Shown one piece after another: positions 11,969 to 38,388 of a DNA stretch of 63,821 nt. Numbering within the stretch: position 1 is the first letter of the stretch; each line of letters starts with the position of its first letter. The stretch lies in contig NZ_CALUYL010000018.1 of assembly GCF_944324995.1 (NCBI RefSeq), positions 1 to 63,821 of the forward strand. The letters are read 5' to 3'. A program made the translations under genes and the position numbers. The notes beneath the pieces are model-generated. The model was not told the DNA's origin. It saw only the letters and a list, made by a program, of their open reading frames with translations, and ran no database searches. The stretch is from an uncultured Mailhella sp. (GTDB lineage Bacteria > Desulfobacterota > Desulfovibrionia > Desulfovibrionales > Desulfovibrionaceae).

Positions 11969-12802
11969 ATGATTATCGACGTCAGACTCCGTCCTCCGTT
12001 CAAAGGCTTCAAACAGCAGTTCTCCCCCGCCGGCAACAAGGCTCTCAGCGCCAAATTCGGCCTGACCTCCCCGGAATCCGTTCAGCAGGTTTCCGAAGAG
12101 CTCATGCTCAAGGAAATGGACGAAGCCGGCATCACCTGCGGACTCGCGACCGGTCGTAACGGCCATTTCCGCTATAATATTCCCAACGACGATCTCGTGG
12201 ACATGACCGCCCATTACAAGGGACGCATTCTCGGCGCCGCAGGCCTGAACTGCGCCGACGTGCCGCAGGCCATGGCCGATGTGGAAAAATACGTGATCAA
12301 CGGACCGCTCAAGGCCGTTTCCATGGAACCCGGCGCATGCCCCGTTCCCCGCTACGCCAACGATCGCAGACTCTATCCCATCTACGAAATGTGCCAGGCG
12401 CACAAGATTCCCGTCATTCTCATGCTCGGCGGCCGCGCCGGCCCCGACGTTTCCTACAGCAATCCCGAAATCATCAGCCGCATAGCCGCAGACTTCCCCA
12501 ACGCCCGCTTCATGGTCTCCCACGGCGGATGGCCCTGGGTGCAGGCCGTGATCGGCGTCTGCTTCTGGCAGGAAAACATCTGGCTGTGCCCCGACATGTA
12601 CCTCATGAACAACTCCGGCGCGCAGGATTACGTTGCCGCAGCCAACACCTGGCTTCAGGATCGCTTTCTGTTCGGTTCCGCCTACCCGCTCATGCCCATC
12701 GGAGAAAGCCTTGCCATCTTCAAATCCATGTTCAAGGAAAGCGTACTTCCCAAACTGCTCTATAAAAATGCCGCAGAACTGTTCAATATAACCCTTTCCT
12801 GA
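11969..12802 (+). CDS. Amidohydrolase_2-fold protein lacking the metal ligands (AH1)
   Basis: 277 aa with the TIM-barrel layout of the Amidohydrolase_2/ACMSD family. The N-terminal HxH metal motif is replaced by D4-V-R6-L-R8-P-P, the mid-barrel His (after IPV) by Met, and the metal-binding Asp of the GSDYP motif by Ala238 (GSAYP). The catalytic-type His is kept in SHGGWPW (H185). Shared family marks are EPG near 120 and DRRLYPIY. GAGG lies 5 nt before the ATG, and an in-frame ATG at 11936 is less likely. It follows the enoate reductase by 50 bp in the same operon. Function unknown; lyase, hydratase or decarboxylase chemistry on a reduced product is possible. Confidence 0.82.
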   Translation: MIIDVRLRPPFKGFKQQFSPAGNKALSAKFGLTSPESVQQVSEELMLKEMDEAGITCGLATGRNGHFRYNIPNDDLVDMTAHYKGRILGAAGLNCADVPQAMADVEKYVINGPLKAVSMEPGACPVPRYANDRRLYPIYEMCQAHKIPVILMLGGRAGPDVSYSNPEIISRIAADFPNARFMVSHGGWPWVQAVIGVCFWQENIWLCPDMYLMNNSGAQDYVAAANTWLQDRFLFGSAYPLMPIGESLAIFKSMFKESVLPKLLYKNAAELFNITLS

Positions 12803-12897
12803 ATACGCCGATCCTCCGTGCCGCAGGGGGAACGCCCTTCCCCCTGCCGTTCACGCGGAACGCACCGAAAAAAACCACTCCGAAAAAAGGGAATAGT

Positions 12898-14289
12898 ATG
12901 TCCGTAACCATGGAAAAAGGAAAAATTATCGGATGGCTGGTTACCATACTCACAAGTATTGCCATCATGCTTATTCCGGTTTCCGAGACGTTCACGCCGG
13001 AAATACGCGCCTATCTCATGCTAAGCATATGCGTCATCAGCATCGTTGCTTTTGACCTCATGGATGTCATCATCCCATCCGTGCTGCTTCCCGTCGCCTA
13101 CTATATTTTCCATGTCGTTCCCATCCAGACGGCCTATGCGCCGTTTACCACCGACACCTTCTGGATGATTCTCGGCGCCTTCGTGCTCACCAACGCCCTT
13201 GACGAATGCGGCATTCTCAAGCGCATCGCGTACTGGATCATCAAAACCTGCGGCGGCACCTACAACAGAACGCTTTATGCCCTGTATCTCGTCGGCCTCA
13301 TTCTCGGCATCATCACCTTCTGCGGCCATTACCTTCTTCTCATCTCGCTGGCCTACGGCATATGCCGGGCCATGGGCTTCGGCAAATCCAAGGAGTCCCT
13401 TCTCATCATGATGGTCGGCGGCATAGCCGGACTCAACGTCAAGCTCTTTGCCTATCGTCCGTCCACCATGTCCATGATGGTCACGCAGGTCAAAACCATC
13501 GACCCCGGCTTTTCCGTCTCCTTCCTCGATCAGATGCTCTACAACAGCCCTTCCGTGCTCATGGCAATATCCTTCATCTGGCTGCTGACGAAGATTTATA
13601 AAAGCCACACCTTCGTTCTGCCCGGAGGAAAGCAGTACTTTGAGGAGGAATACAGAAATCTCGGCCCCATGTCTCCCGCGGAAAAGAAGGCCGCCGTTCT
13701 TCTTGCAATTCTGATGATATGGATCAGCACCGAACCTCTGCACGGCATTTCGGCAAACTACTCCTTCATGACCCTGCCCTGGCTCTGCTTTGTTCCCGGC
13801 ATCAACATAGGCACGCGAAAAAGCATCAACCAGATCAACCTCGGCGTCATATTCTTCGTGGCCGCCTGCCTCGGCATAGGCATAGTGGGAACCAAACTGG
13901 GCTTCACGCAGCTGCTTGCCGGAAAAATCGCCGAAAACATTTCCGGCATCGGCGTGAACTGCTTCCTGTTCCTCATGCTTTTCCTCAGCACCCTCGTCAA
14001 CCTCATTCTCTCCCCCGGCGCCATGATGGCCGTGCTCCCCGCACCCTTCGCCAGCCTCTCGCTGCAGCTCGGCATGAATCCGCTGCCCTCCCTTCTGACC
14101 ATCATCTACTCCACCGACTTCGTCTTTCTTCCTCATGAAGTGCCCGCCTATCTCATCATGTTCGGCTTCGGACTCATGACCATGAAGGACTTCATCAAAC
14201 TGCATCTCATGAAAATCGCCTGGTTCACCCTGCTGTTCGGTCTCATTCAGATTCCGTTCTGGTACGCCATGGGCATCATCATGCAGTAA
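12898..14289 (+). CDS. SLC13/DASS-family anion permease
   Basis: A polytopic inner-membrane protein of 463 aa with about 11-12 hydrophobic segments. The features resemble the divalent anion:Na+ symporter (CitT/DASS) family: two repeat halves, FTTDTFWMILGAFVL in the first and NQINLGVIFFVAACLGIG in the second. These carriers import di- or tricarboxylates or sulfate-like anions. It lies between two amidohydrolase-like genes in the sigma-54 operon, so it probably imports or exchanges the pathway substrate or product. Its presence together with a complete TRAP transporter in one operon is unusual and suggests two related anions or a substrate/product antiport. Confidence 0.85.
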   Translation: MSVTMEKGKIIGWLVTILTSIAIMLIPVSETFTPEIRAYLMLSICVISIVAFDLMDVIIPSVLLPVAYYIFHVVPIQTAYAPFTTDTFWMILGAFVLTNALDECGILKRIAYWIIKTCGGTYNRTLYALYLVGLILGIITFCGHYLLLISLAYGICRAMGFGKSKESLLIMMVGGIAGLNVKLFAYRPSTMSMMVTQVKTIDPGFSVSFLDQMLYNSPSVLMAISFIWLLTKIYKSHTFVLPGGKQYFEEEYRNLGPMSPAEKKAAVLLAILMIWISTEPLHGISANYSFMTLPWLCFVPGINIGTRKSINQINLGVIFFVAACLGIGIVGTKLGFTQLLAGKIAENISGIGVNCFLFLMLFLSTLVNLILSPGAMMAVLPAPFASLSLQLGMNPLPSLLTIIYSTDFVFLPHEVPAYLIMFGFGLMTMKDFIKLHLMKIAWFTLLFGLIQIPFWYAMGIIMQ

Positions 14290-14398: not shown

Positions 14399-15217
14399 AT
14401 GGCCATCATCGACTGCCGCTTCCGTCCCCTGACCCCTGAATTTGAATGCTACATCAACCCCGAACCCGCCAACTTCTGGATTACCCAGACCCGTCCGCTC
14501 AAGCCTGAACCGCTTGACGTGACCATGAAGTATTTCAAAAAAATGGGCATCACCGGCGCGGTCTGTTCCGGACGCGACATGCGCTCCACCGGCGGAGCCT
14601 ATGTTTCCAATGAATACATCGCCGACCTCGTCGCCAAGTATCCCGTCTTCATCGGCGTTGCCGGTGCCGATCCGCTGAACGCACACGTGAAGGACGACAT
14701 TGAACACGCCGTCAAGGATCTCGGCCTCAAGGGCGTTTCCGTGGATCCCTTCTCCCTGAAAACCACCGCCGACGACAAGCGCTTCTACCCCATCTATGAA
14801 AAGTGCGCCGAACTGAACGTTCCGGTCATCATCACCATCGGCCCCCTGCCCATCCGCTGCGGCTCCTATCTGGAATGGGGCAGCCCGCTTCCCGTGGATC
14901 ATATCTGCGCAGACCTGCCCGACCTCAAGGTGCTGCTCTCCCACGCCGGATTCCCCTTCACGCAGGAACTCATCGCCATCGTCTGGCGTCACGAAAACCT
15001 GTACTTTGAAAGCTCCATCTACCGCCATCTCCCCGGCGCCGATCTGCTGGTCGAGGCCGTGAACACCTGCATCGGCGACAAGATGTGCTACGCCTCGGCC
15101 TATCCCTATGCCGACTACACGCAGGCGCTGCCCAAGTTCCTGGCGCAGGGATACAATCCCATCGTTCTTCCCAAGATTCTGCATGAAAACGCCGAACGCC
15201 TGTTCGGACTGAACTAA
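14399..15217 (+). CDS. Amidohydrolase_2-fold protein lacking the metal ligands (AH2)
   Basis: 272 aa, the most divergent of the five paralogues. The N-terminus is MAIIDCRFRPL (RxR at residues 7-9 instead of HxH). The mid-barrel segment VPVIITIG has Thr at the metal-His position, the SHAGFP motif keeps the His, and SAYPY has Ala234 in place of the Asp. It also keeps DKRFYPIYEKC. The expected EPG is VDPF here. AGGAG precedes the ATG. It is co-transcribed between the SLC13 permease and the TRAP genes. The divergence from AH1 in the same operon suggests a second step or a second substrate. Confidence 0.8.
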   Translation: MAIIDCRFRPLTPEFECYINPEPANFWITQTRPLKPEPLDVTMKYFKKMGITGAVCSGRDMRSTGGAYVSNEYIADLVAKYPVFIGVAGADPLNAHVKDDIEHAVKDLGLKGVSVDPFSLKTTADDKRFYPIYEKCAELNVPVIITIGPLPIRCGSYLEWGSPLPVDHICADLPDLKVLLSHAGFPFTQELIAIVWRHENLYFESSIYRHLPGADLLVEAVNTCIGDKMCYASAYPYADYTQALPKFLAQGYNPIVLPKILHENAERLFGLN

Positions 15218-15297
15218 CTTCCCATGTGGCCGGTCTTTCGGGATCGGCCACATGCGCACGGTAAGATTTTCAAAATATTCTGACGATCGGAGGAGGC

Positions 15298-15798
15298 ATG
15301 CTGAAACCCCTGTTCAAAGGCATTGACCGCATGACGAGCGCACTGATCATCCTGACGTTCTCCATGATGTGCATTGTCATCTTCGCGCAGGTCATCACAC
15401 GATATATATTCAGTTTTTCCCTGCCCTGGGCCGAAGAAGTCGGACGTTTTCTTTTTCTGGCGCTCTCCTACCTCGGAGTATCCATGGGCATGAAGCGCCA
15501 GGCGCACCTTCGCGTGGACATCGTTCTTTTATACATGCCGCCTTTCATGAAAAAAGTATTTGAAGTCCTTTCTCAGGCAATATGCGCGGGATTTTTCATC
15601 TTTATTGTTTATGAAGGAATCTCCATGACCATGAAGGTATGGCGAATCGAACAGATGGCCGTCTCCCTTCCTCTTCCCATATGGGTGGTATGGGCATGCA
15701 TTCCCTTCAGCGCCTTTCTTACAACGCTGCAGTGCTTCAAAAACATTTATGAACTTCTTTCCGGAACTGTTCCGGACGGCGCGGGGGAACAGGCATGA
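15298..15798 (+). CDS. TRAP transporter small permease, DctQ type
   Basis: 166 aa with the four transmembrane helices expected of DctQ and the characteristic LPWAEEVGRFLF segment after the second helix (usually W-x-E-E-x-x-R-F-x-F). In the membrane it pairs with the large DctM subunit and assists Na+-driven uptake of organic acids delivered by DctP. GGAGGAGG is immediately upstream of the ATG. Its stop overlaps the dctM start (ATGA), showing translational coupling. Confidence 0.93.
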   Translation: MLKPLFKGIDRMTSALIILTFSMMCIVIFAQVITRYIFSFSLPWAEEVGRFLFLALSYLGVSMGMKRQAHLRVDIVLLYMPPFMKKVFEVLSQAICAGFFIFIVYEGISMTMKVWRIEQMAVSLPLPIWVVWACIPFSAFLTTLQCFKNIYELLSGTVPDGAGEQA

Positions 15799-17063
15799 AT
15801 GAACTGACGCTCATGTTCACGATCATCGTGGGACTGCTGGTCATCGGCGTTCCCATCGGCGTATCCCTCGGCATCGGCGTCGTCGGGGCGCTGTGGTGGG
15901 CCGACGAATCCATGATGTTCTTCACTCAGAAGCTTTTCAACAACTTCGACTCCTTCCCCCTTCTGGCCATTCCCTTCTTTCTGCTCTCCGGCGACATCAT
16001 GGCGCGCGGAACCCTTGCCGACACGCTGCTGAACTTCTGCCGAAGCATGCTCGGTCACAGAAAGGCCGGCATGGCCTACATCACCATCGTCACCTGCCTG
16101 TTCTACGGCGCGCTCTGCGGCTCCGCCGTGGCCACCACCGCCGCCGTCGGCGCCACCATGATTCCCGCCATGGAAAAGGAAGGATATCCGAAATCCTTCG
16201 CCACGGCCGTCAACGCCTCTTCCGGAGCCCTCGGCATCATCATTCCGCCCAGCATTCCCATGATTCTGTACGGCGCCTTCGGCGGGGTATCCGTTTCCAA
16301 CATGTTTCTTGCCGGCATCATTCCCGGCTGCTTCGTCGCTCTCATGCTCATGGTCACGGCAGGCTTCATCTGCGCCAAAAACCACTACGGCAACGTGCTC
16401 CCCAAGGCCAGCGCCAGGGAACGCTGGGCGAGCTTCCGCGAAGCAAAATGGGCTCTCGGCGTGCCGGTCATCATTCTCGGCGGCATCTACGGCGGCATCA
16501 CCACGCCTACCGAAGCCGGCGTCGTGGCCGTGGTCTATTCCTTCATTGTGGAAAAATTCATCCGCAAGTCCATGACCATGGCCGTCTTCCGCAAAATCAT
16601 GGTGGATTCCGCCACCACGCTCGGCCTCATCATGCTGGTTCTTGTCACCGCCAACGCGCTCGGCAACATCATGATGCTGGCCAATATTCAGGATTCCCTT
16701 CTGCACTGGGTACAGTCCCTCACCACGAGTCCCTACGTGCTGACGGCCGTGCTGCTGATCATGCTTTTCATTCTCGGCATGTTCGTGGAAGTGTCCGCCA
16801 TCATTCTCATCTTTGCCCCGCTTCTGGTTCCCATAGTAACGAGCTACGGCATCGATCCCGTGCATTTCGGCATCGCCTTCATCGTCTCCATGTGCCTCGG
16901 CGGCCTCACGCCTCCCGTCGGCGTCAATCTGTTCATCGGATGCAGCATCAGCGGACTGAACATCGCCATACTCACCAAGGCCATTCTGCCCTTCATCGGA
17001 GCCATCATAGCGGCAAACTTCATCCTGGCCTATGTTCCGTTCCTCAGTCTGTGCCTCTTGTAA
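15795..17063 (+). CDS. TRAP transporter large permease, DctM type
   Basis: 422 aa, about 12 transmembrane segments, the usual length for DctM. Family marks include FPLLAIPFFLLSG, the segment SGSAVATTAAVG-like (here CGSAVATTAAVG), PTEAGVVAVVY and GGLTPPVGVNLF near the C-terminus. It forms the Na+-coupled transport channel of the TRAP system. The 4-base overlap with dctQ and the 27-bp gap to dctP give the standard order Q-M-P. Confidence 0.94.
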   Translation: MNELTLMFTIIVGLLVIGVPIGVSLGIGVVGALWWADESMMFFTQKLFNNFDSFPLLAIPFFLLSGDIMARGTLADTLLNFCRSMLGHRKAGMAYITIVTCLFYGALCGSAVATTAAVGATMIPAMEKEGYPKSFATAVNASSGALGIIIPPSIPMILYGAFGGVSVSNMFLAGIIPGCFVALMLMVTAGFICAKNHYGNVLPKASARERWASFREAKWALGVPVIILGGIYGGITTPTEAGVVAVVYSFIVEKFIRKSMTMAVFRKIMVDSATTLGLIMLVLVTANALGNIMMLANIQDSLLHWVQSLTTSPYVLTAVLLIMLFILGMFVEVSAIILIFAPLLVPIVTSYGIDPVHFGIAFIVSMCLGGLTPPVGVNLFIGCSISGLNIAILTKAILPFIGAIIAANFILAYVPFLSLCLL

Positions 17064-17090
17064 TCCTGTTTCATGCTACGGAGTACAACC

Positions 17091-18095
17091 ATGAAAATTC
17101 GTCTTGCTTCCCTTGCCCTGGCCCTTGCTCTGAGTCTTGCCGGCACCGCCTTCGTGACCGACGGCATGGCCGCTCCCAAAAAAATCAAGGTCTGGACCGG
17201 CAACCCGGAAGGCGATCCCATTCTCGCAGGCATGAAGGACGCCTTCAAACCGTTCGTGGAAAAGGAATCCAAGGGAAAATATGTGGTGGAAATCTACCCG
17301 GCAGCATCACTCGGAGCTTCCGATACGGCCTTTCAGGGAGTCCAGTTCGGCAGCATTCAGATCGTTGTCGATGCCGTAAACAATATCAGTCAGTTTATCC
17401 CTCAGTTCTCCGCCTTTGACGTGCCCTATCTGCTGCCGGACGAGGAAAAGCTGAACAGGGCCTTCCATTCCAAGGCCGTGGAACGCCTCTGGACCTTCGC
17501 CGAAAAGAAGGGCATCAAGCCTCTCAACGTCGTTCTGGCCACCTACCGCGGCATTCTCTCCAACAAGCCCATTCTCAAGCTGGAAGACGCGCGCGGCCTC
17601 AAGGACAGAACCTCTTCCTCCAAATATCACATTGCGGCCATGGAATCGCTCGGCTTCATTCCCACGCCCATGGCTGCCTCGGAAGTGCTTACCGCCATGC
17701 AGCAGGGCGTCATCGACTCCGTGGACTTTGAATGGCACGCCTTCGTCAATCAGAGAATCGTCGATGTGGCCAAGAACCTGCTTCTCTCCGACCATCTGCC
17801 CGTGCTGTACATGGCCTACACGAGCTCCGAGTGGTGGGACGGCCTTTCCAGAGCCGACCGGGAAATGTTCACGAAGGCGCTGGAAGCCTACCGTCAGCAC
17901 GTCATCAACATCTATAAGGAACGCAACGCCCAGGTGCTTGAAACCATGGAAAAGGATTTCGGCGTCACGATCACCCGCCTGAGTCCCGAAGAAAAGGCCC
18001 GCTGGATCGAAGCTTCCAAATCCGCCGTCAAGAGCTTCCCTGAAGACATCGCCGCCCTGGCCGAAGAAATCCGCGCCGCCGGCGAAGGCAAGTAA
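17091..18095 (+). CDS. TRAP transporter substrate-binding protein, DctP type
   Basis: A periplasmic binding protein that captures a carboxylate and delivers it to DctQM. 334 aa with a Sec signal peptide (MKIRLASLALALALSLAG..., cleavage after about residue 30). It keeps the family's Gly-Leu-Lys-x-Arg segment (GLKDR), which normally carries the Arg that binds the substrate carboxylate, and QQGVIDSVDFEWHA. The start at 17091 is behind GGAG and gives a clean signal peptide; the ATG-like start at 17073 would add six polar residues. The substrate is unknown, but context suggests an unsaturated or aromatic organic acid. Confidence 0.93.
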   Translation: MKIRLASLALALALSLAGTAFVTDGMAAPKKIKVWTGNPEGDPILAGMKDAFKPFVEKESKGKYVVEIYPAASLGASDTAFQGVQFGSIQIVVDAVNNISQFIPQFSAFDVPYLLPDEEKLNRAFHSKAVERLWTFAEKKGIKPLNVVLATYRGILSNKPILKLEDARGLKDRTSSSKYHIAAMESLGFIPTPMAASEVLTAMQQGVIDSVDFEWHAFVNQRIVDVAKNLLLSDHLPVLYMAYTSSEWWDGLSRADREMFTKALEAYRQHVINIYKERNAQVLETMEKDFGVTITRLSPEEKARWIEASKSAVKSFPEDIAALAEEIRAAGEGK

Positions 18096-18174: not shown

Positions 18175-20109
18175 ATGAAATGTCTTGAACCTGCGCGCCT
18201 CGGCAACGTGGAACTGCGCAACCGCATCATCTGCCCCCCCATGGTGACCCGCTTTGCCTCGGAAGAAGGCCTCGTCACCGACCGTCTCATCGCATACGCC
18301 TCCGAAAGAGCCCGCGGCGGCGTGGGCCTCTACACGCTGGAAGCCACCTACGTCACCCCTCAGGGCAAGGGCTTTGAACACGGCGTGGGCATTGACGACG
18401 ACAACAAGATTCCCGGCCTCAGGCGTCTCACCGACGCCGTCCACGCTCAGGGCGGCAAAATTTCCGTTCAGATTCATCACGCGGGCCGGGAAACCTGGAG
18501 CTCCATCAGCGGACTGCCCGTGGTGGCCCCTTCCGACTGCCCCGTCGCCTATTCGGAAGAACCCGTTCACGTGCTGACGAAGGAAGAAATCGCCGTCATC
18601 GTCGGACAGTTCGGCGCAGCCGCCCGGCGCGCCAGAGAGGCCGGGTTCGACGCCGTGGAAATTCACGGCGCTCACGGCTATCTGCTCACGCAGTTTCTCT
18701 CGCCCTACACCAACAAGCGACAGGACGAATACGGCGGTTCGCTGGAAAACCGCGCAAGACTCAGTCTTGAAGTCATACGGGCCGTGCGCGCGGCCGTGGG
18801 CAGAGATTTCACCGTGACCTTCCGCATGAGCGTGGAAGAAAGCCTGCCCGGCGGTCTGCCGCTGCAGGACGGCGCAGCGGCAGCGGCGCTCTTTGCCGCC
18901 ACGGGCGACATCGACGCCATCCACATCGTGTCCGGCAACTACGCCACGCATCATACCGTCATTCCTCCGGCGAGCGAGGGCTACATCATCAACAGAGCGC
19001 GCGCCATTGCCGTGCGTCAGGCCGTGGGGCCGGACTTTCCCCTCATTCTTGCCGGGCGCATCAAGACCGTGTTTCAGGCCGAAGAAATCATTCAGAGCGG
19101 CATTGCCGACTTCGTGGCCATGGGACGCGCCCTCATTGCCGATCCCGAACTGCCCAGGCTGTGCGCCGAAGGCAAGTTCAACGCCGTGCGCAACTGCCTC
19201 GGCTGCAACGACGGCTGCGCCATGCGCACCGGCGTGGGCCTCGACACGCTCTGCGCCGTGAACCCCTTCATGGGCTTCGAGGGCGAATTCCGTTCGGACG
19301 AAAAAGCAAAAACGTCTCTTCGCGTGCTCATTGTCGGCGGCGGCCCCGCCGGCATGGAGGCCGCATGGTACGCCGCCCGCCGCGGACACCGCGTCACCCT
19401 GTGCGAAAAGCGCTTCCGCCTGGGCGGACAGTTCTTCCTCGCCTCACTGCCGCCGTTCAAGACCGATCTGGCCATCTACCTGTTCAACATGTTCCATCGA
19501 CTGGAAAACGTCGGCGTCGAGATTCGCCTGAACTGCCCCGTGGACGCAGACTTCATCCGCAGCTTCAACGCCGACAGAGTCATCGTCGCCACCGGCAGCC
19601 TTCCCCTCTCCATTCCCTTCAGGGGACTGGAAAACGTGCCGCATCTTTCCGCCGATGAAGTGCTCGACGGTCATCTCGACGACACCGGAGCCCGGGTGGC
19701 CGTCATCGGCGGCGGGCTCGTGGGCGCGGAAACGGCCGAATACATCGCCCGCACGGGACGCAGCGTCAGCATCGTGGAAATGGCGGACGACATTGCGCAG
19801 GGCATTCACCCCGTCATGCAGGACTTCATGAAAAAACGTCTGGCAGCGCTCAACGTTTCCGTGTTTACCGGGCACAAGGTGCAGGCCTTTGAAGGCAACA
19901 GCATTTCCGCCTCCCGCGCGGACGGGTCAACGGTCGATCTCGGTCCGTTCGACACCGTGGTCATCGCCCTCGGCTCCAGAGCCGACAAAAAGCTCTGCGA
20001 CGAACTCGACGCCGCTGGCATCCCCTACTCCGCCGCGGGCGACTGCGTGAAGGCAGGCAGAGTGCTTGCGGCCGTAAGTTCCGCCATGCACGCCGTTCAC
20101 GATCTCTAA
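18175..20109 (+). CDS. OYE-family NADH:flavin oxidoreductase / enoate reductase-like (copy 2)
   Basis: 644 aa with the same architecture as copy 1: FMN TIM barrel with HGAH (H164, H167), 4Fe-4S cysteines C341, C344, C348 and C360 with the standard X11 last gap, then GGGPAG and GGGLVG dinucleotide folds. GGAGAGAG precedes the ATG. Two divergent enoate reductases in one operon imply either two successive C=C reductions or related substrates. As in the other copies, the FMN domain opens with a K/R-N-R-segment (ELRNRIICPPMVT), typical of OYE enzymes. Confidence 0.92.
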   Translation: MKCLEPARLGNVELRNRIICPPMVTRFASEEGLVTDRLIAYASERARGGVGLYTLEATYVTPQGKGFEHGVGIDDDNKIPGLRRLTDAVHAQGGKISVQIHHAGRETWSSISGLPVVAPSDCPVAYSEEPVHVLTKEEIAVIVGQFGAAARRAREAGFDAVEIHGAHGYLLTQFLSPYTNKRQDEYGGSLENRARLSLEVIRAVRAAVGRDFTVTFRMSVEESLPGGLPLQDGAAAAALFAATGDIDAIHIVSGNYATHHTVIPPASEGYIINRARAIAVRQAVGPDFPLILAGRIKTVFQAEEIIQSGIADFVAMGRALIADPELPRLCAEGKFNAVRNCLGCNDGCAMRTGVGLDTLCAVNPFMGFEGEFRSDEKAKTSLRVLIVGGGPAGMEAAWYAARRGHRVTLCEKRFRLGGQFFLASLPPFKTDLAIYLFNMFHRLENVGVEIRLNCPVDADFIRSFNADRVIVATGSLPLSIPFRGLENVPHLSADEVLDGHLDDTGARVAVIGGGLVGAETAEYIARTGRSVSIVEMADDIAQGIHPVMQDFMKKRLAALNVSVFTGHKVQAFEGNSISASRADGSTVDLGPFDTVVIALGSRADKKLCDELDAAGIPYSAAGDCVKAGRVLAAVSSAMHAVHDL

Positions 20110-25428: not shown

Positions 25429-25430
25429 GG

Positions 25431-25913: not shown

Positions 25914-25967
25914 AGTCTCTCCATGGAGGGAGAAGCTCTCAGATGACCAGCCCCTCCCCCAGAGGTA

Positions 25968-26969: not shown

Positions 26970-27063
26970 AGAATATGCTCCTGTTTTGCTGTGCGTTGCA
27001 TGATGGATTTCTGAACAACCTGCCTGAGAAGCAGGGAGCTCAGTGATTTCATGCCTTTTATTG

Positions 27064-27079
27064 AGCAAGAATCATGCCA
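27064..27079 (-). promoter_or_regulatory. Sigma-54 promoter of the island 2 operon
   Basis: On the minus strand the sequence is TGGCAT-N5-TTGCT with GG and GC 12 bp apart, a good -24/-12 match (one or two deviations from TGGCAC-N5-TTGCA). The predicted start is near 27053, giving an 84-nt leader before dctP. The divergent gene encodes a sigma-54 activator. Confidence 0.75.
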
Positions 27080-30854: not shown

Positions 30855-32732
30855 ATGTTGACACGAGCATCTCTCAAGCCTGTGGCAACCGCCATAGCGA
30901 TACTGTTCACCCTGTTCCAGATCTACTTTACCGCCTTCGGCGTGCTGGAAGGCACGACCATGCGGGCCGACTTCCTCGGTTTCGTCATGGTGCTTATTTT
31001 CCTTCTCTACCCTCCGTTCAAGCCGGTTGAAGGAAAAAAAGAGCCGGTGATTCTCGTGCTTCTCGACATCTGTCTGTGTATTCTGGCCATTGCCATTTCG
31101 GCCTACATTACCCTGCACAGCGACGAAATCATGATGCGCATGCGCTACGCCGAAGAAGTGCCGCCCCTGGCGTTTTTCCTCGGCTCCTGCGCCATTGCCC
31201 TTACTCTTGAAGCCACGCGCCGAACCACGGGCTTTCCGCTGGTCATCATAGCGCTCGTCTTCCTCGCCTACGCCTTCTGGGGCGACGTGCTCCCTTCCGC
31301 ACTCAAGCGTATGCCCATCACCCCGGACATGATCCTCGAATGCATGTATCTTTCCAACGAAGGACTGTACGGTATTCCCACCTCCGTGGCCACGGGCACC
31401 ATTTTCGGCTTCATCATGTTCGGCGCGTTTCTTGAACGCTCCAACATGACGAACATCTTCATGGACATCGCCTGCCTTCTCACCAAAAACTCGCAGGGCG
31501 GGCCCGCCAAGGTGGCCATCTTCGCTTCCGGCATGTTCGGTACCTTCTCCGGTTCGGCCGTGGCCAACGTGTACGGCACGGGCATCTTCACCATTCCGCT
31601 CATGAAGAAGGTCGGCTATCAGCCTCACTTCGCGGGCGCCGTGGAAGCCGTGGCCTCCACCGGCGGGCAGATCATGCCCCCCATCATGGGCGCGGCGGCC
31701 TTCCTCATGGCCGATCTCGCAGGCGTGCCCTATCTCGAAGTCGCCAAGGCCGCCCTGCTGCCCGCCATCCTCTACTACCTCTCCCTCTGGAGCATGATCC
31801 ACTTCGAGGCCGTCAGAACCAATCTCGGCTACATCGACGCCTCGCTCGTTCCTCCCGTTTCCCGCGTCGTCAGGAGACTGTACTACCTGCTTCCCATCGT
31901 CATACTCGTCGCCATCATGTGCATGGGCAAGAGCGTCAGTCTCTGCGCCAACGCGGCCACGCTTTCCGTGCCCTTCATCGCACTGCTCAGCTCCGAAACC
32001 CGCTTCACCTTCCGCAGCTTCTGCGAAGCACTGGAACTCTCCGCGAAAAACGTGCTCATGATCGGCAGCTGCTGCGCCTGCGCCGGCATCATCATCGGCG
32101 TCATCTCCCTCACAGGCGTCGGCTACAAGCTCATGGCCGTCATCACCTCGTTTGCCGGCAACAATCTCTTCCTGTTGTGCGTCTGCCTCATGATCACCTG
32201 CCTCGTGCTGGGCATGGGAGTGCCCACCGCTCCCGCCTACATCATCGTGGCCACCCTCGGCGCTCCCGCCCTCATCAAAGCCGGATGCCTGCCCATCGTC
32301 GCCCACATGTTCTGCTTCTACTTCGCCATTCTCTCCGTCATCACGCCGCCGGTGTGTCAGGCCGCCTTCGCAGGCGCGGCCATCGCCGAAGCTCCGGCCA
32401 TGAAGACCGGCTTCACCGCGGCCAAGCTCGGCACCATCGCCTTCATCGTTCCCTTCATGTTCATCTACGCGCCGGAACTGGCCGCGCAGGGCAGCGGACC
32501 CGCCATTGCCATGGCCGTCGTCACCAGCATCATCGGCGTGGTGATTCTGGCAGGCGGCGTGCAGGGATACCTGCTCGTGCCCGCGAGCATCGTCGAAAGA
32601 CTCATGCTCATCGGCGGCGGTCTGTGCATGGTCATGCCCGGATCGATCACCGACCTGCTCGGCATCGCCCTTGCCGCCGTCGTCATTCTCTTCCAGATCA
32701 TGAAGAAGCGCCGGAACAGCATTCCTGCCTGA
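30855..32732 (+). CDS. TRAP transporter fused permease (DctQM fusion, TAXI type)
   Basis: 625 aa. An N-terminal four-helix DctQ-like part is followed by the large DctM-like channel part, the fused organisation typical of TAXI TRAP systems. Marks include SGSAVANVYGTGIFTIP, ASTGGQIMPPIMGAAAF and GMGVPTAPAYIIVATL. The start is ATG 30855 behind GGGGGAGG; a frame opening at 30813 is less likely. It works with the TAXI binding protein encoded next, importing an organic anion driven by Na+ or H+. Confidence 0.93.
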   Translation: MLTRASLKPVATAIAILFTLFQIYFTAFGVLEGTTMRADFLGFVMVLIFLLYPPFKPVEGKKEPVILVLLDICLCILAIAISAYITLHSDEIMMRMRYAEEVPPLAFFLGSCAIALTLEATRRTTGFPLVIIALVFLAYAFWGDVLPSALKRMPITPDMILECMYLSNEGLYGIPTSVATGTIFGFIMFGAFLERSNMTNIFMDIACLLTKNSQGGPAKVAIFASGMFGTFSGSAVANVYGTGIFTIPLMKKVGYQPHFAGAVEAVASTGGQIMPPIMGAAAFLMADLAGVPYLEVAKAALLPAILYYLSLWSMIHFEAVRTNLGYIDASLVPPVSRVVRRLYYLLPIVILVAIMCMGKSVSLCANAATLSVPFIALLSSETRFTFRSFCEALELSAKNVLMIGSCCACAGIIIGVISLTGVGYKLMAVITSFAGNNLFLLCVCLMITCLVLGMGVPTAPAYIIVATLGAPALIKAGCLPIVAHMFCFYFAILSVITPPVCQAAFAGAAIAEAPAMKTGFTAAKLGTIAFIVPFMFIYAPELAAQGSGPAIAMAVVTSIIGVVILAGGVQGYLLVPASIVERLMLIGGGLCMVMPGSITDLLGIALAAVVILFQIMKKRRNSIPA

Positions 32733-32773
32733 TGCGCTTTCCATCCACCCTCATTACCTTCAAGGAGATTGTC

Positions 32774-33751
32774 ATGCACACCAAGTTCGGAACCGTTGCC
32801 CTGACCTTACTGCTTTCGCTCGTCACCTCCGCCTCCGCGCTCGCGGCCGACAAAATTGAAATCAACGCTGCGGCCGGCAATCAGGGCGGCGTATTCTATG
32901 TCGGCATGGGCGCCGTGGGCAATGCCATCATGAAGGACAACCCCGACATCGACTACTCCATGTTTCCCTCGGCAGGACTCACCAACGTCATCCGCGTGCA
33001 AAACAACCAGAGTCAGATAGGCGTCATCCAGTCCAACAACGGATACATGGCCGTCAAGGGCATCGCTCCGTTCAAAAAGCCGCAGACCAACATCGCCGGC
33101 CTCGTCAACATGAACACCAGGGCGCACACCCACATTGTGGTGTCCGAAGCGTCGGGTATCAAATCCATGGAAGAAATCAGAGATAAAAAGCTGCCCATAC
33201 GCATCAACATCAACCCCACCGGCGGCAACAACGAAATGGTGCCCCGCCTGATCTTTGAAGCCTACGGCATCGGCTGGAAGCAGCTGCGGGAAAACGGCGC
33301 CAAGCTGTTCCCCCTGTCCATTCCCGACTCCATCGACATGATGAAGGACGGTCGCATCGACGTGGACGTGTATCACGGCGAAGAGCCCGCTTACAAGTAC
33401 ACGGACATCATGTCCACCGTGGACATCCGCTTCCTCGACGTGGATCCCGCCGTGGTGCAGAAGGTCGCCGACGACTACGGCATGACCATAACCGAATTCT
33501 CTCCCGAAGCCTACAACGGCAAAGCCAAGGGCATCCGCGGCCTCACCTCGCACACGGAAATCATAGTGAACGCCGGCATGTCCGAAGACCTGGCATATCG
33601 GCTCACCAAGTCCATCATCGAGCACAGGGAAGACATCGCCACCGCCGTTCCGCTGTGGAGCACCATGACTCCCGAAGTCGCCTGCCAGACCACAGTTCCC
33701 CTGCATCCCGGCGCGGCAAAGTACTACCGGGAAATCGGCGTTCTCAAGTAA
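32774..33751 (+). CDS. TAXI-family TRAP solute-binding protein
   Basis: 325 aa with a signal peptide (MHTKFGTVALTLLLSLVTSASA). TAXI features: NAAAGNQGGVFYVGMGAVG at the start of the mature domain and PINP-like segment (here RININPTGGNNEM). Periplasmic receptor for the fused permease, 41 bp downstream of it, RBS AAGGAG. TAXI ligands known from other bacteria include glutamate-like anions, but the ligand here is unknown. Confidence 0.92.
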   Translation: MHTKFGTVALTLLLSLVTSASALAADKIEINAAAGNQGGVFYVGMGAVGNAIMKDNPDIDYSMFPSAGLTNVIRVQNNQSQIGVIQSNNGYMAVKGIAPFKKPQTNIAGLVNMNTRAHTHIVVSEASGIKSMEEIRDKKLPIRININPTGGNNEMVPRLIFEAYGIGWKQLRENGAKLFPLSIPDSIDMMKDGRIDVDVYHGEEPAYKYTDIMSTVDIRFLDVDPAVVQKVADDYGMTITEFSPEAYNGKAKGIRGLTSHTEIIVNAGMSEDLAYRLTKSIIEHREDIATAVPLWSTMTPEVACQTTVPLHPGAAKYYREIGVLK

Positions 33752-33814: not shown

Positions 33815-34543
33815 ATGACCAGACCCGTTCTCATCGTTACCGGCTCCGCCACGGGCATAGGACTTGCCGCCGCCCGCCTGCTCAGCTCCCGCTACCTTGT
33901 CGTCACCACCTGGAACCGCACGCCTCCCGCACAGACGGATCTCGACTTCATCAACGGCGCGAGCGTGCAGTGCGACCTCTCCAGGGAAGAAGACTGCGCG
34001 CACCTCGTGCAGGAAGCCTGCAAACTCGGCTCTCTGCGCGGACTCGTGCATTCGGCCGCCGTCAATCCCACGCCCGCGCCTTCCGTGGCGGAAATGTCGC
34101 TGGAATTCTGGAACCGCATTCTCACCAACAATCTCACCAGCACGTTCCTGCTGTGTCGGGCCGTGCTGCCCGAACTGCGCAAGAATGGCGGCGGCTCCAT
34201 CGTGCTCGTCAGCTCCACGGCCGGACGCAACGGATTTTCCCTGGCCGGCGGGCAGCCCGGCCACGCCAAGACGGCCTACGCCACCAGCAAGGCGGGCATC
34301 ATCGCCTTCACCCGCGGTCTGGCCAGAGAAGTGGCCGGAGAAAACATCCGGGTGAACTGCGTGGCTCCCGGCCCCATAGACACGCGCATGCTGCCGAACC
34401 GTGAAGCCACGGAAAAACGGGTGCCCATGGGCCGCATCGGAACCCCGGAAGAATGCGCCAAAGCCATTTCCTTCATGCTGGACGAAGCCACCTTCACTAC
34501 AGGCTGCACCTTCGACGTTTGCGGCGGACAGTACATGAACTGA
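33815..34543 (+). CDS. SDR-family oxidoreductase
   Basis: 242 aa classical short-chain dehydrogenase/reductase. The NAD(P)-binding TGSATGIG is at 9-16, NNLTST at the usual Asn position, Ser133/134, and YATSK with catalytic Tyr155 and Lys159. It would interconvert an alcohol and ketone or reduce an enoyl/keto group on the imported compound. CGGAAGA precedes the ATG, and the ABM-like gene follows after 7 bp, so they are co-transcribed. Confidence 0.9.
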   Translation: MTRPVLIVTGSATGIGLAAARLLSSRYLVVTTWNRTPPAQTDLDFINGASVQCDLSREEDCAHLVQEACKLGSLRGLVHSAAVNPTPAPSVAEMSLEFWNRILTNNLTSTFLLCRAVLPELRKNGGGSIVLVSSTAGRNGFSLAGGQPGHAKTAYATSKAGIIAFTRGLAREVAGENIRVNCVAPGPIDTRMLPNREATEKRVPMGRIGTPEECAKAISFMLDEATFTTGCTFDVCGGQYMN

Positions 34544-34550
34544 GGCAACC

Positions 34551-34907
34551 ATGAGTGCATACGCCATCACTTCCCGCATGCGGGCGAAAGAGGGCATGGA
34601 AGAGGAGTTCGCCGAGCTGCTCGCAGCCTACGAAAAGTCGTGCGCCGGACATCCGGGACTTATTTCACACTGCCTTCAGCGCAACATCGACGATCCCCGG
34701 GAATTTCTCTTTCACGAAATCTACGACTCCAAAGAACATCTGATTCAGCACAGGGCTGCGCCCGAAAACAAGCGCTGGGCTCCGGTACGAGACGCCCACA
34801 TCGACGAAAGGCATGTCCATACCTGGGAGCTTCTGAATATGGAAGGGCCCGCCGCCCTGGCGTGGAAAAAGCACGACCGGCCTTTCCCGAACCGGAACAG
34901 CTCCTGA
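34551..34907 (+). CDS. ABM-domain (antibiotic biosynthesis monooxygenase-like) protein
   Basis: 118 aa single ferredoxin-like domain of the ABM type: AKEGMEEEFAELL, then HPGLISHCLQR and EFLFHEIYDSKEHL, the usual strand/helix order. Such proteins dimerise to form an alpha/beta barrel and can be cofactor-free monooxygenases, isomerases or quinone-handling proteins. In an anaerobe, oxygenase activity is unlikely. It echoes the tandem EthD protein of island 1, which has the same fold class. It is translationally close to the SDR gene and to the LysR gene. Confidence 0.82.
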   Translation: MSAYAITSRMRAKEGMEEEFAELLAAYEKSCAGHPGLISHCLQRNIDDPREFLFHEIYDSKEHLIQHRAAPENKRWAPVRDAHIDERHVHTWELLNMEGPAALAWKKHDRPFPNRNSS

Positions 34908-34933
34908 AGGATGTTCCGAAACGCGGAGACATT

Positions 34934-35821
34934 ATGGATCTGAAAGACATGCTGTACTTCTGCACCATTGTGGAGGAAGGACAGATAAGCAAGGCCGCAA
35001 AGCGGCTGAACATCAGTCAGCCGCCGCTGAGCCTGCGCCTCAAGGAACTGGAAGAAGAGGTGGGCTGTTCCCTCATTTCCCGCTCCAGCGGAAAATGGAA
35101 GGTCACCAAGGAAGGACAGCTTCTCTACCACAAGAGTCAGCAGATTCTCAGCCACATCGAAGGGCTGGCCGAAAGCATCCGGCATATCGGCTCGGAGTTC
35201 AGCGGAGAGGTGCGCATAGGCATAGGAACGCACTGCATATCCTACTTTCGGAGCATCGTGCCCACGCTCATCGAAAAGTATCCCCGCATTTCCTGCCGAA
35301 CGGTCGTGGCCGATTCTCCCACCATCGAGCGCTATCTTCAGGAGCGATCCATCGAGCTCGCCGTGCTCAGACTCAACCTTTCACACAATTGCTACACCAC
35401 GTTCAATCTTCCCCCGCAGCACATGGTGGCCGTATATTCCAATCTGGTGGAGCCCCCCTCCCACGAGGGGCAGGTTACTTTTGAGGAACTGGTAAAATAT
35501 CCTCTGCTGCTCTCCCGGCGCTGGGCCAACGCCGACGGCTTCCGTCCCATCGTGGCGGCCTTTCAGGCCAAGCATCTGCGCCCGCAGATGGTGCTCGACA
35601 CACAGACCCCGTCGCTGCTCTTTGAGCTTCTCTATACCACGCCGGCCGTGGCGCTCATTCCCAACACCGAAATACCGCCGCACGCTGCGCACATCTTTCC
35701 CGTCAGGGACATCGAGCACTTCGTCGTCTTTCAACCCGTGCTCGCCTATCTCAACGACTCCTATCTCAGCCCTCAGACAACAGCCGTCATGGAACTTCTC
35801 AAAGAACAGTGTATCGAGTAA
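34934..35821 (+). CDS. LysR-family transcriptional regulator
   Basis: 295 aa with the N-terminal winged HTH (MDLKDMLYFCTIVEEGQISK, then AAKRLNISQPPLS) and a C-terminal LysR substrate domain (GEVRIGIGTHCISY onward). GGAGA precedes the ATG at 34934; the longer open frame from 34640 overlaps the ABM gene and is an artefact. The gene is 26 bp after the ABM gene and 128 bp upstream of the flavoprotein operon, where an ATAC-N7-GTAT site is found. It probably activates that operon and possibly its own in response to the imported anion. Confidence 0.92.
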   Translation: MDLKDMLYFCTIVEEGQISKAAKRLNISQPPLSLRLKELEEEVGCSLISRSSGKWKVTKEGQLLYHKSQQILSHIEGLAESIRHIGSEFSGEVRIGIGTHCISYFRSIVPTLIEKYPRISCRTVVADSPTIERYLQERSIELAVLRLNLSHNCYTTFNLPPQHMVAVYSNLVEPPSHEGQVTFEELVKYPLLLSRRWANADGFRPIVAAFQAKHLRPQMVLDTQTPSLLFELLYTTPAVALIPNTEIPPHAAHIFPVRDIEHFVVFQPVLAYLNDSYLSPQTTAVMELLKEQCIE

Positions 35822-35868
35822 TACATATTTATTTTTTATATATTCTATGAATAAAAAAAGTCTTTGTT

Positions 35869-35883
35869 ATACACAATAAGTAT
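35869..35883 (+). promoter_or_regulatory. LysR-type operator overlapping a promoter
   Basis: ATAC-N7-GTAT is the classical T-N11-A LysR box with perfect arms. It overlaps a weak promoter TTGTTA (35864-35869) - N18 - TATACA (35888-35893), 67 bp before the flavoprotein ATG. Confidence 0.6.
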
Positions 35884-35949
35884 GAACTATACATAAAGAC
35901 AGGCATCATTGTTCAAAAGTCCGTCATCATCTATTCAAAAGGATTCATC

Positions 35950-36579
35950 ATGAAAGTTCTCGCTCTCAATGGAAGTCAGAATCCCCGCGGAGTCACCTGG
36001 CACGCCATCAATCTTGTCGGAGAAGAGCTCGCCAAGGAAAACATCGGCCTCGACATCATCCACATCGGAGCCAAGGCCGTGGCCGGATGCGTGGACTGCC
36101 GCAAATGCCGCACCAACGGGCATCACTGCATTCACAACGACATCGTCAACGAGATCATCGACAAACTTCCCGAATATGACGGTCTGATTCTGGGATGCCC
36201 CGTACACTACATGGGCATTCCCGGCACATTCAAGGCCTGTCTCGACAGGCTTCTCTACGCCACGGAGCATCTCGAAGGCTGGGGGCCCAAGCCCGCCACG
36301 GCCATTGCCGTCTGCCGCAGGGCCGGAGCCGTAAGCGCCGCGCAGCAGCTCGGCAACTACCTCAACTGCTCCAACCTCATTACGGTGAACAGCCAGTACT
36401 GGAACATCGCCTTCGGCTGGAAGCCTGAAGAATTTCTCTCGCAGGACGCGGAAGGCGTTCAGACCATGCAGGTGCTGGGACGCAATATGGCATGGCTGCT
36501 CAAGGTCATTGAAGCCGGACGGGCCAGCGTTCCCGCGCCCGTGTACGAAAAGCGCGTGCGCGCCAATTTCTGCCGCTAG
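35950..36579 (+). CDS. Iron-sulfur flavoprotein / NADPH-dependent FMN reductase-like
   Basis: 209 aa flavodoxin-fold protein (MKVLALNGSQNPRG start with the FMN phosphate loop) with a compact cysteine motif C47-X2-C50-X2-C53-X6-C60. This matches the CX2CX2CX4-7C cluster motif described for archaeal iron-sulfur flavoproteins. GCPVHYMGIPGTFKACLDRL is the usual second flavin-contact region. It would pass electrons to, or reduce, the compound processed by the two amidohydrolase-like proteins that follow, taking the place the enoate reductases hold in islands 1 and 2. AAAGGA precedes the ATG. Confidence 0.85.
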   Translation: MKVLALNGSQNPRGVTWHAINLVGEELAKENIGLDIIHIGAKAVAGCVDCRKCRTNGHHCIHNDIVNEIIDKLPEYDGLILGCPVHYMGIPGTFKACLDRLLYATEHLEGWGPKPATAIAVCRRAGAVSAAQQLGNYLNCSNLITVNSQYWNIAFGWKPEEFLSQDAEGVQTMQVLGRNMAWLLKVIEAGRASVPAPVYEKRVRANFCR

Positions 36580-36705: not shown

Positions 36706-37554
36706 ATGGTCATCGATTTCCGCCTTCGCCCTCCCTTCGGGGACTATGTCAAACTCGGCATGTACACCAACAAGGCGCGCTGCGCGAGCTACGCGTCCAA
36801 CATCGGCAAGGGACTGGCCCCGTCCATCGCAGAAGAAAGCATGGAACTGCTTCTTCAGGACATGGACAGAAACGGCATCGACATGGGCGTGGCCACCGGA
36901 CGCGTGGCTCACTTTGCCGGAGGCATGAGCAACGACAACATCCTTGAACTGGTGCAGACCTGGCCCGATCGCTTCGTGGGCTTTGCCGGACTCAATCCGC
37001 TGGACTGGCGCTGGTCACTGAAGGAAATTCACAGAACCGTCGTGGACGGACCGCTCAAAGGCGTAGTGCTCGAACCGGGAGCCGTGCGGCCTCCCATGTA
37101 CGGCGACGACGCCCTGCTCTATCCCCTGTATGCGGAATGCGAAAAGTACGACATTCCCGTCATGGTCATGCTCGGCGGAAACGCGGGCCCCAACGTGGAC
37201 TACAGCTTCCCCCGAATCATCCACAAGATAGCCTCGGATTTTCCCACCGTAAAATTCATCGTGTCGCACGGCGGCTGGCCGTGGGTGCAGGCCGTGCTCG
37301 GCGTGTGCTTCGTGCAGCCGAACATCTATCTGAGTCCGGATCTCTACCTCTTCAATCAGCCGGGCTGGCAGGACTACGTCACGGCCGCGCACACCTACAT
37401 GCGCAAACGCATTCTGTACGCTTCCGCCTACCCCTTCCTGCCTCTGGACTGCGTTCACGCCTTCCGCAAACTGTTCAAGCCGGAAATTCTTCCCGATCTC
37501 ATGTGCAACAACGCCGCCGAAATCCTCAAGCTCGACATCAGGGGGAAAGAGTAA
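36706..37554 (+). CDS. Amidohydrolase_2-fold protein lacking the metal ligands (AH4)
   Basis: 282 aa. MVIDFRLRPPFG (R6-L-R8 instead of HxH), IPVMVMLGG with Met at the metal-His position, SHGGWPW retaining the His at 188, and ASAYPF with Ala241 instead of Asp. VLEPGAV and DALLYPLY are conserved with its relatives. AGGAGG precedes the ATG; an upstream in-frame ATG (36658) would add a Pro-rich stretch and is rejected. It is adjacent to AH5, which shares its N-terminal segments and is probably a tandem duplicate. Confidence 0.84.
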   Translation: MVIDFRLRPPFGDYVKLGMYTNKARCASYASNIGKGLAPSIAEESMELLLQDMDRNGIDMGVATGRVAHFAGGMSNDNILELVQTWPDRFVGFAGLNPLDWRWSLKEIHRTVVDGPLKGVVLEPGAVRPPMYGDDALLYPLYAECEKYDIPVMVMLGGNAGPNVDYSFPRIIHKIASDFPTVKFIVSHGGWPWVQAVLGVCFVQPNIYLSPDLYLFNQPGWQDYVTAAHTYMRKRILYASAYPFLPLDCVHAFRKLFKPEILPDLMCNNAAEILKLDIRGKE

Positions 37555-37557
37555 CTC

Positions 37558-38388
37558 ATGGTCATCGACTTTCGTCTCCGCCCTCCGTTCGGGGGATTTC
37601 TCCATGTCGGCATGTACGCGGACAAGGCCGCCGCAGACTTCTACGCCGACAACATAGGATTGCAGCGTTCGCCGTCCGCCCGGCAGGAATCCATGGAGCT
37701 GCTGCTCCAGGAAATGGAGGAAAACGGCATCGACATGGGCGTGGCCACCGGACGCGTCGGCCACCGCAAGGGCAACGTGCCCAACGATGAAATCATACGC
37801 CTCATGAAGGAATATCCCGGAAAGTTCGTGGGCCTTGCTGGCATCGACGCCTCCGACCCCAAGGAAGGCGTCAGGGAAATGCACCGCGTGTGCGTGGACG
37901 GGCCGCTCAAGGGCGTAGTTCTCGAACCGGGAGCCCTCGAACGATCCCGCTACGTGGACGACGCGCGCCTTTATCCCTTCTATGCCGAATGCGAACGTCA
38001 TCACATTCCCGTCATTCTCATGATCGGCGGCCGGGCCGGGCCCGACAGAACCTACTCCGATCCGCAGCGCCTGAGCAGAATCGCCTTCGACTTTCCGGAG
38101 GTCAACTTCGTCGCCGCCCACGGCTGCTGGCCCTTCGTGCAGGAAATACTCGGCATCTGCTTCTATCAGAAAAACATCTACGTCTGCCCCGATCTCTACT
38201 TCTTCCACCTCCCCGGACAGGACGACTACATCCGGGCGGGCAACTTCTACATGCAGGATCGCATGCTCTTCGGCTCCGCCTATCCCTTCACCCCGCTCTC
38301 CTGCGTCCATGAATTCCGGGAGAGCTTCAGGCCGGACGTGCAGGACAAGCTGCTCTACCGCAACGCCGCCGCGCTGCTGGGCCTCTAG
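37558..38388 (+). CDS. Amidohydrolase_2-fold protein lacking the metal ligands (AH5)
   Basis: 276 aa, the tandem partner of AH4 (3-bp gap). They share MVIDFRLRPPFG, SMELLLQ-M, NGIDMGVATGRV and DGPLKGVVLEPGA. RxR replaces HxH, IPVILMIGG has Met at the His position, AHGCWPF keeps His188, and GSAYPF has Ala241 for Asp. AH4 and AH5 may form a heteromer or handle two related substrates. It is the last gene of island 3, and no strong terminator is seen directly after it. Confidence 0.84.
   Translation: MVIDFRLRPPFGGFLHVGMYADKAAADFYADNIGLQRSPSARQESMELLLQEMEENGIDMGVATGRVGHRKGNVPNDEIIRLMKEYPGKFVGLAGIDASDPKEGVREMHRVCVDGPLKGVVLEPGALERSRYVDDARLYPFYAECERHHIPVILMIGGRAGPDRTYSDPQRLSRIAFDFPEVNFVAAHGCWPFVQEILGICFYQKNIYVCPDLYFFHLPGQDDYIRAGNFYMQDRMLFGSAYPFTPLSCVHEFRESFRPDVQDKLLYRNAAALLGL

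Follow-up and report, generated by a model that had tools for sequence, protein, structure and literature searches.

Five amidohydrolase-fold proteins without the canonical metal ligands in a Mailhella contig, and a possible role of their group in organosulfonate catabolism

In ACMSD-type enzymes of the amidohydrolase fold, a metal is bound by the two His residues of an HxH motif after strand beta-1, a His after beta-5 and an Asp after beta-8, and the His of an SHGG motif is catalytic. Catalysis without a metal has precedents in the superfamily among lactonases or isomerases, such as the lactonase LigI, which is reportedly metal-independent; unlike the proteins described here, it is said to keep the HxH-type His residues and the Asp. 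In BB4693 of Bordetella bronchiseptica (PDB 3IRS, 3K4W), an “uncharacterized TIM-barrel protein” whose structure was deposited in 2009 without an assigned function, RxR takes the place of HxH. Here we analyzed 63,821 nucleotides of an uncultured Mailhella sp. (the window), which are one whole contig (C18, NZ_CALUYL010000018.1) of a 2.92-Mb genome and encode proteins whose nearest named relatives are from Mailhella and other Desulfovibrionaceae. Five of them, AH1 to AH5, carry the RxR pattern and belong with BB4693 to what we call the RxR group. In our reading, this is an old, functional Amidohydro_2-fold group that has lost the ACMSD-type metal site. The reading that we favor, with a probability of about 0.38, is that AH1 to AH5 are lyases without a canonical metal site and that several subclades of the group act in organosulfonate catabolism, perhaps by splitting carbonyl-bisulfite adducts. 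For some RxR subclades, the link to sulfonates has good support; the reaction, the absence of metal and the kind of substrate that each window copy uses are inference.

11969..12802, plus strand: AH1, RxR amidohydrolase of 277 aa (motifs IDVRLRP, PVILMLGG, SHGGWP, GSAYP)
14399..15217, plus strand: AH2, RxR amidohydrolase of 272 aa (IDCRFRP, PVIITIGP, SHAGFP, ASAYP)
23202..24065, minus strand: AH3, RxR amidohydrolase of 287 aa (IDCRIRP, VLTLNISC, SHAAWP, NSSYP)
36706..37554, plus strand: AH4, RxR amidohydrolase of 282 aa (IDFRLRP, PVMVMLGG, SHGGWP, ASAYP)
37558..38388, plus strand: AH5, RxR amidohydrolase of 276 aa (IDFRLRP, PVILMIGG, AHGCWP, GSAYP)

All five reading frames are open, AH4 and AH5 are 3 bp apart, and the proteins matched Pfam Amidohydro_2 (PF04909) with 90.8 to 114.4 bits, over the cut-off of 26.4. 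A preliminary description of the window had reported RxR for HxH, loss of the mid-barrel His and replacement of the GSDYP Asp by Ala or Ser in all five copies, from start positions that we find to be the likely ones. Alignment by hidden Markov model agreed: RxR stands after beta-1, the mid-barrel His column reads M, T, N, M, M and the Asp column A, A, S, A, A in AH1 to AH5. None of the ACMSD-type ligands (HxH, beta-5 His, beta-8 Asp) is thus present in the five window copies, and the SHGG-type His is present in 5/5, as the same description had stated. The key residues of AH1 are R6, R8, R63, E120, M152, H185, D209, Y211 and A238; AH2 carries the signature D-R-R-R-D-T-H-S-Y-S-A.

BB4693 shares all nine of these AH1 residues, i.e., the three Arg, an acid at 120 and H185, without H152 or D238. 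It matched AH1 with a phmmer E value of 9.7e-63, and an AlphaFold2 model of AH1 (mean pLDDT 94.1) superposed on 3IRS with a Foldseek TM score of 0.93 at 39% identity. The other 49 Foldseek matches listed had TM scores of 0.72 or less and included ACMSD and aromatic decarboxylases; ACMSD, LigW, LigJ and gamma-resorcylate decarboxylase have the same fold as AH1 (TM about 0.6 to 0.7). ACMSD and metal-dependent PF04909 lyases or decarboxylases were also weak sequence matches to AH2. They have the SHGG His in common with the RxR group, which differs in the four replaced metal-ligand positions and in the added third Arg and beta-4 acid. LigI was named neither among the AH1 and AH2 sequence matches nor among the 50 Foldseek matches listed. 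In the model, AH1 residues 8, 63, 120, 152, 185 and 209 lie at or just past the ends of strands beta-1, 2, 4, 5, 6 and 7; such strand-end positions form the usual catalytic face of the barrel.

The residue pattern held well beyond the window. We aligned 152 rows, some genes being counted twice through overlapping loci; 121 had all six key columns and 110 had R6, R8 and H185. Among these 110, residue 63 was Arg in 109 and residue 120 was acidic in all (Glu 91, Asp 19), D209 was found in 102 and Y211 in 104, and neither His at 152 nor Asp at 238 occurred in any (0/110 each), which bears out the claimed loss of all four ligands. The near-invariant R63 also supports the suggestion that the paired Arg residues form a likely anion site. 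In rows without RxR, residue 152 was mostly His and residue 120 mostly Asn, Gln or His; of the 26 filled at 238, 14 had Asp there. The sole RxR row of this census with R63 replaced, by Leu, was L100 (row 15822), which has a TGA inside the match (G465:C51:125909). The RxR proteins L174 and L175, encoded beside DASS-like transporters, have Asn for R63. A divergent clade (L078 to L083, L067, L069 and L071) shows the mirror image of the RxR pattern, with SxR, NxR, GxR or GxT after beta-1, the mid-barrel H152 kept and Pro at the position of H185.

The genome holds more copies than the five first described, which are indeed in the window: a PF04909 search gave 21 matches, 19 of them with the RxR pattern, the other two being one canonical HxH protein and one that reads as TatD-like. 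D4, R6, R8, R63, P166, H185, P189, P240 and N267 were invariant across the alignment of the 19 paralogues, so that the catalytic SHGG His is kept in 19/19. The RxR copies are under purifying selection: dN/dS was 0.075 to 0.191 in 13 comparisons with close relatives (one being a paralogue), although the AH3 values are rough because the synonymous distances are large. Decay of the five copies, against which the preliminary description had argued from the repeated pattern, was ruled out by the intact frames, these dN/dS values, the invariant pattern, now in 19 of the 21 matches, and its recurrence in other phyla. Genomes of the same genus gave up to 29 matches each at E ≤ 1e-3 (checked in part for RxR), compared with one to a few per genome in most of the family's other genera; the expansion looks like a genus trait.

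The preliminary description had also proposed a search for RxR in other genomes, and we found it in several phyla. RxR relatives were seen in Betaproteobacteria, Rhodospirillales, Roseomonas, Hyphomicrobiales, Peptococcaceae and two Oscillospiraceae, and a Streptomyces relative carries RxC. In large draws, a limited number of candidates was scored for each genome (6 or 8; 12 for RxR and 4 for the radical enzymes below in the family set), so absences in them are uncertain. RxR was uncommon there, matching 9/385 genomes of the alphaproteobacterial class (six of these being the divergent clade), 22/300 of a betaproteobacterial order and 4/398 of the phylum. A novelty confined to this genome was ruled out by BB4693 and these relatives. 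The term “new metal-free chemistry” in the preliminary description was therefore not quite right as regards “new,” a structure with the same residues having been deposited and LigI being a reported precedent. The RxR group as such is already known, and what looks novel is its gene context. Our literature search (open-licence papers, mostly by listing) found neither a function assigned to the group nor a paper on BB4693.

In the Mailhella genome, 7 of 8 PFL-like glycyl radical enzymes (GREs) and 7 of 14 Old Yellow Enzyme (OYE)-type genes have an RxR gene no more than 10 kb away. Such zones make up 8.8% of the genome (binomial 3e-7 for GRE and 8e-5 for OYE, clustering uncorrected). Six of the GREs were scanned with NF048011 (cut-off 1000 bits), which NCBI names (2S)-3-sulfopropanediol dehydratase (HpsG); four passed (1502.9, 1490.5, 1329.0 and 1284.7) and two fell below (879.2 and 744.0). 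Two published papers describe HpsG as the 2,3-dihydroxypropane-1-sulfonate (DHPS) sulfite-lyase and IslA as the isethionate sulfite-lyase, 60.6% identical to it (PMC8397734, PMC12890257); at that identity, NF048011 may fail to separate the two. A dsrA match above the cut-off was found as well. One stretch of this genome holds a TauE-like gene (L049:3531-4286, minus strand; 33% identity) together with an RxR gene and the top-scoring NF048011 GRE among those scanned.

We then compared the occurrence of both genes in the same 199 Desulfovibrionaceae genomes, taking RxR by alignment A3 at E ≤ 1e-60 and GRE by the NF048011 cut-off; the counts rest on the search rows listed. Each was found in 63 genomes. 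Both were present in 58, RxR only in 5, GRE only in 5 and neither in 131 (Fisher 4.7e-38, phylogeny uncorrected). Without the 16 genomes of the own genus, the numbers were 44, 5, 3 and 131 (5.9e-33), and by genus 20, 0, 1 and 23 (1.2e-11). In variable genera, the two genes tended to vary together among the genomes listed (16 both, 19 neither, 5 and 2 single). Outside the own genus, a GRE lay within 20 kb of 33 of the 50 RxR genes among those listed. At the laxer E ≤ 1e-180, the number of the 199 genomes with a GRE rises from 63 to 89.

Twenty loci from other genera of the family were picked by hand. Sixteen were of the AH2-like type (D120, T152, S209 or A209) and four of other types. A GRE was found in 8 of the 16 in the stretches first fetched, and in 13 once six loci had been extended. 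Eight of the 16 also hold a TauE/SafE-family gene (7/7 tested pass PF01925), and six (L161, L164, L165, L171, L176 and L177) genes for Pta, RnfC, PduT and aldehyde dehydrogenase, a set that matches the isethionate microcompartment cluster of Bilophila wadsworthia. The AH2 signature was identical in 14 of the 16 AH2-like copies, most of them near HpsG/IslA-type enzymes, and recurred in the GRE-adjacent paralogue L049 of the Mailhella genome. In the published table of the B. wadsworthia cluster (PMC8667426), gene 00649 stands last, after RnfC, and is listed as a “hypothetical protein, predicted amidohydrolase function.” Its position in the IslA locus, beside RnfC/PduS and PduT, resembles the arrangement in L171, and this synteny suggests that 00649 may be a member of the RxR group.

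Aerobic and proteobacterial relatives point in the same direction for part of the group. Sixteen plasmid loci were chosen among the matches listed, with an incomplete gene table; sulfite or sulfonate genes were listed in 6 of the 9 with RxR (Cupriavidus, M. nodulans, Aliarcobacter, Azospirillum, Methylobacterium bullatum and Methylocystis, as opposed to Desulfolutivibrio, Hydrogenophaga and Caballeronia) and in 0 of the 7 non-RxR loci inspected. SorA was over its cut-off in M. nodulans and M. bullatum (L060 and L066), and SoxC in L103. For a controlled comparison, we used 34 alpha- and betaproteobacterial RxR loci, i.e., 40 regions that take in 45 of the 54 matches listed, minus six of the divergent clade (L078 to L083; sulfur genes in 0/6); G019 and G022 were search centers already known for RxR. 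The 40 non-RxR PF04909 control loci were hand-picked among the matches listed, from 24 of the same 27 genomes; G615, G645 and G663, which all have SsuD-linked copies, had no other PF04909 match and gave no control. In 17 of the 40 control loci, the RxR profile picked up a row, and none of these rows was RxR. SorA, YeiH, TauE, SsuA or SsuD was matched in 10/34 RxR loci vs 0/40 controls (p = 1.8e-4), and SsuD alone in 7/34 vs 0/40 (p = 0.003). The Azospirillum SsuA probe, a fusion with a sigma-54 activator that had produced false matches, was excluded from this comparison. In five loci (L098, L101, L102, L105 and L106), ssuD, the RxR gene and ssuA follow in a row, with a 4-bp overlap of ssuD and the RxR gene. 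A further draw of 398 genomes held four with RxR, two of them new: one has SsuD and the other both fumarase halves directly upstream. The M. bullatum locus reads major facilitator superfamily transporter, RxR gene, SorA, cytochrome and YeiH, with no SsuD match in the stretch fetched. RxR subclades in aerobes thus adjoin ssuD, sulfite dehydrogenases, or fumarase and sulfite exporters.

The HpsG, IslA and SsuD contexts have in common a sulfonate substrate and, as products, sulfite and a carbonyl compound. A mechanism can be proposed in which the metal site is replaced by two Arg at the beta-1 His pair, R63 after beta-2, E/D120 after beta-4 and His185 after beta-6. The Arg cluster would grip the sulfonate, E/D120 and His185 would shuttle protons, and acid/base lyase chemistry without the canonical metal would remove (bi)sulfite from the sulfonate carbon. 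The simplest common substrate would be an alpha-hydroxysulfonate, i.e., a carbonyl-bisulfite adduct, as expected from the general chemistry of such adducts when a desulfonating enzyme frees sulfite near an aldehyde or ketone. Splitting it needs proton transfer and a stabilized leaving sulfite, for which the Arg cluster, the acid and the His could suffice without a metal; a beta-sulfo acid might be split likewise, by retro-addition. In the Mailhella genome, DsrAB would receive the freed sulfite. Where an operon includes an OYE gene, the acid left by retro-addition would be unsaturated and could be reduced by the flavoenzyme. For the Sdh-fumarase subclade, the predicted route runs from sulfosuccinate via sulfofumarate and 2-hydroxy-2-sulfosuccinate to oxaloacetate and sulfite; for M. 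bullatum, hydroxymethanesulfonate is a candidate substrate.

A bolder extension, which we consider rather doubtful, would make the whole RxR group widespread metal-free C-S lyases for carbonyl-bisulfite and related sulfite adducts, the missing companion of desulfonating enzymes, expanded to about 19 copies in Mailhella-like gut bacteria. The substrates would then be acetaldehyde- or hydroxyacetone-bisulfite beside IslA/HpsG, aldehyde-bisulfite beside SsuD and, in Methylobacterium, hydroxymethanesulfonate. Oxaloacetate-bisulfite would end a sulfosuccinate pathway made up of Sdh-like, fumarase-like and RxR enzymes and a sulfite exporter, and the 19 or so copies would serve to obtain sulfite from a range of sulfonates.

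Through organosulfonate respiration, Desulfovibrionaceae produce H2S in the gut. The pathways described so far may lack a step if an unrecognized companion enzyme is encoded in most sulfite-lyase genomes. An Arg cluster would have replaced the metal site in a classic metalloenzyme fold, and the structure deposited in 2009 would gain a function.

The neighborhoods of the five window copies are of another kind, as the following genes show.

9999..11918, plus strand: OYE/BaiCD-like flavoenzyme (ene-reductase type), upstream of AH1
12898..14289, plus strand: DASS-type anion symporter, with a score under the family cut-off
15298..18095, plus strand: tripartite ATP-independent periplasmic (TRAP) transporter DctQ-DctM-DctP, downstream of AH2
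18175..20109, plus strand: OYE/BaiCD-like flavoenzyme, after the AH2 TRAP genes
21200..23119, minus strand: OYE-type flavoenzyme beside AH3
24157..27068, minus strand: TRAP transporter DctM-DctQ-DctP beside AH3
27242..28591, plus strand: sigma-54-dependent activator
30813..33751, plus strand: TRAP large permease (DctM, extended) and NMT1-like binding protein
33815..36579, plus strand: short-chain dehydrogenase/reductase (SDR, 33815-34543), LysR regulator (34640-35821) and FMN reductase (35950-36579), before AH4-AH5

The gene orders are OYE-AH1-DASS and AH2-DctQMP-OYE, then DctP-DctQ-DctM-AH3-OYE on the minus strand, and TRAP/NMT1-like-SDR-LysR-FMN reductase-AH4-AH5.

Several observations weigh against a sulfonate role. 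The five window copies adjoin TRAP or DASS transporters, OYE, SDR and FMN reductase genes, and tblastn of the whole window gave zero GRE, SorA, YeiH, TauE, SsuA or SsuD matches. The favored reading is weakened by this lack of a sulfur gene or GRE, even near AH2, whose sole tie to sulfite-lyase loci is its residue signature; that signature is also found in the OYE-linked paralogue L051. The GRE count in the loci of other types was 0/4, without the extension made for six of the 16. In the family, five genomes have RxR only (G1053, G1081, G1140, G1151 and G1162) and five GRE only (G010, G012, G1091, G1092 and G1093), and outside the own genus a listed RxR gene lies within 20 kb of just 33 of 67 GREs over the cut-off. 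Genomes and loci share ancestry and are not independent. The sulfur probes were taken from RxR loci. In a quick tree, rows with a sulfur context group into two clades, of 12 and of four, with one more row on its own; L093 was given that label only on its Sdh/fumarase genes. In the same tree, RxR lineages are interspersed with the divergent SxR/GxR/GxT clade and with forks of weak support, so that no single origin of RxR is apparent in it. Among the 34 proteobacterial loci, 24 are without any sulfur gene searched, and the TctC receptor is present in 24, being frequent in controls as well (17/40). Finally, the known HpsG, IslA and SsuD pathways already account for desulfonation. The proposition that every RxR gene is a sulfonate gene was dropped in view of these 24 loci and the window.

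These points feed a serious rival, nearly as likely as the favored reading. It holds that the RxR proteins are a small-organic-anion family without the canonical metal, acting mostly on carboxylates as hydratases, lactonases, isomerases or decarboxylases, with sulfonate use restricted to a few specialist subclades and the window copies acting on carboxylates ahead of OYE. It is serious because sulfur genes are missing from the window that holds the five copies, and it draws on the TctC and TRAP transporters and unmatched sulfur genes of most proteobacterial loci and the window. The OYE, SDR, MmgE/PrpD, HpcH and lactonase-like neighbors in the Mailhella genome and the Sdh/fumarase partners of one subclade also fit it. 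Carboxylates alone, however, would leave unexplained the near-complete co-occurrence with GRE, the coupling to ssuD and the sulfite dehydrogenase and TauE neighbors.

The two remaining alternatives concern the active site itself. E/D120, His185 and often D209 might hold a relocated metal at a beta-site-like position, since binuclear amidohydrolases bind metal through residues of beta-4 and beta-6; the acid at 120 is invariant in the census, H185 is kept and D209 is frequent. We nevertheless consider this improbable, since the beta-5 ligand His is absent from all 110 rows, the 16 AH2-like loci have Ser or Ala instead of D209, which leaves two ligands, and three Arg near the site disfavor a cation. 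Still less probable is a non-catalytic protein that binds, senses or scaffolds sulfonate or sulfite. The loss of the canonical metal ligands and the lack of an obvious gap in the known desulfonation pathways would suit such a role, but the conserved strand-end residues (acid, His and Arg), the 19 diverged copies and the dN/dS values argue for an enzyme.

Further genes were noted in passing. In the Mailhella genome, a 542-aa Amidohydro_3 protein (L050:10622-12250) is encoded ahead of a TRAP cluster, near an RxR gene. It is possibly related to the metal-dependent bile salt hydrolases of the amidohydrolase superfamily that are described for Desulfovibrionaceae (PMC13081902). A protein of about 230 aa is encoded after OYE genes both in the window (20240-20932, plus strand) and, as a paralogue, at L051:17174-17878 (plus strand), with no Pfam match for either copy and no NCBIfam match for the window copy. 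In the window, four tRNA genes, for Gly, Cys, Gly and Gly, are clustered at 6863-7218 on the plus strand.

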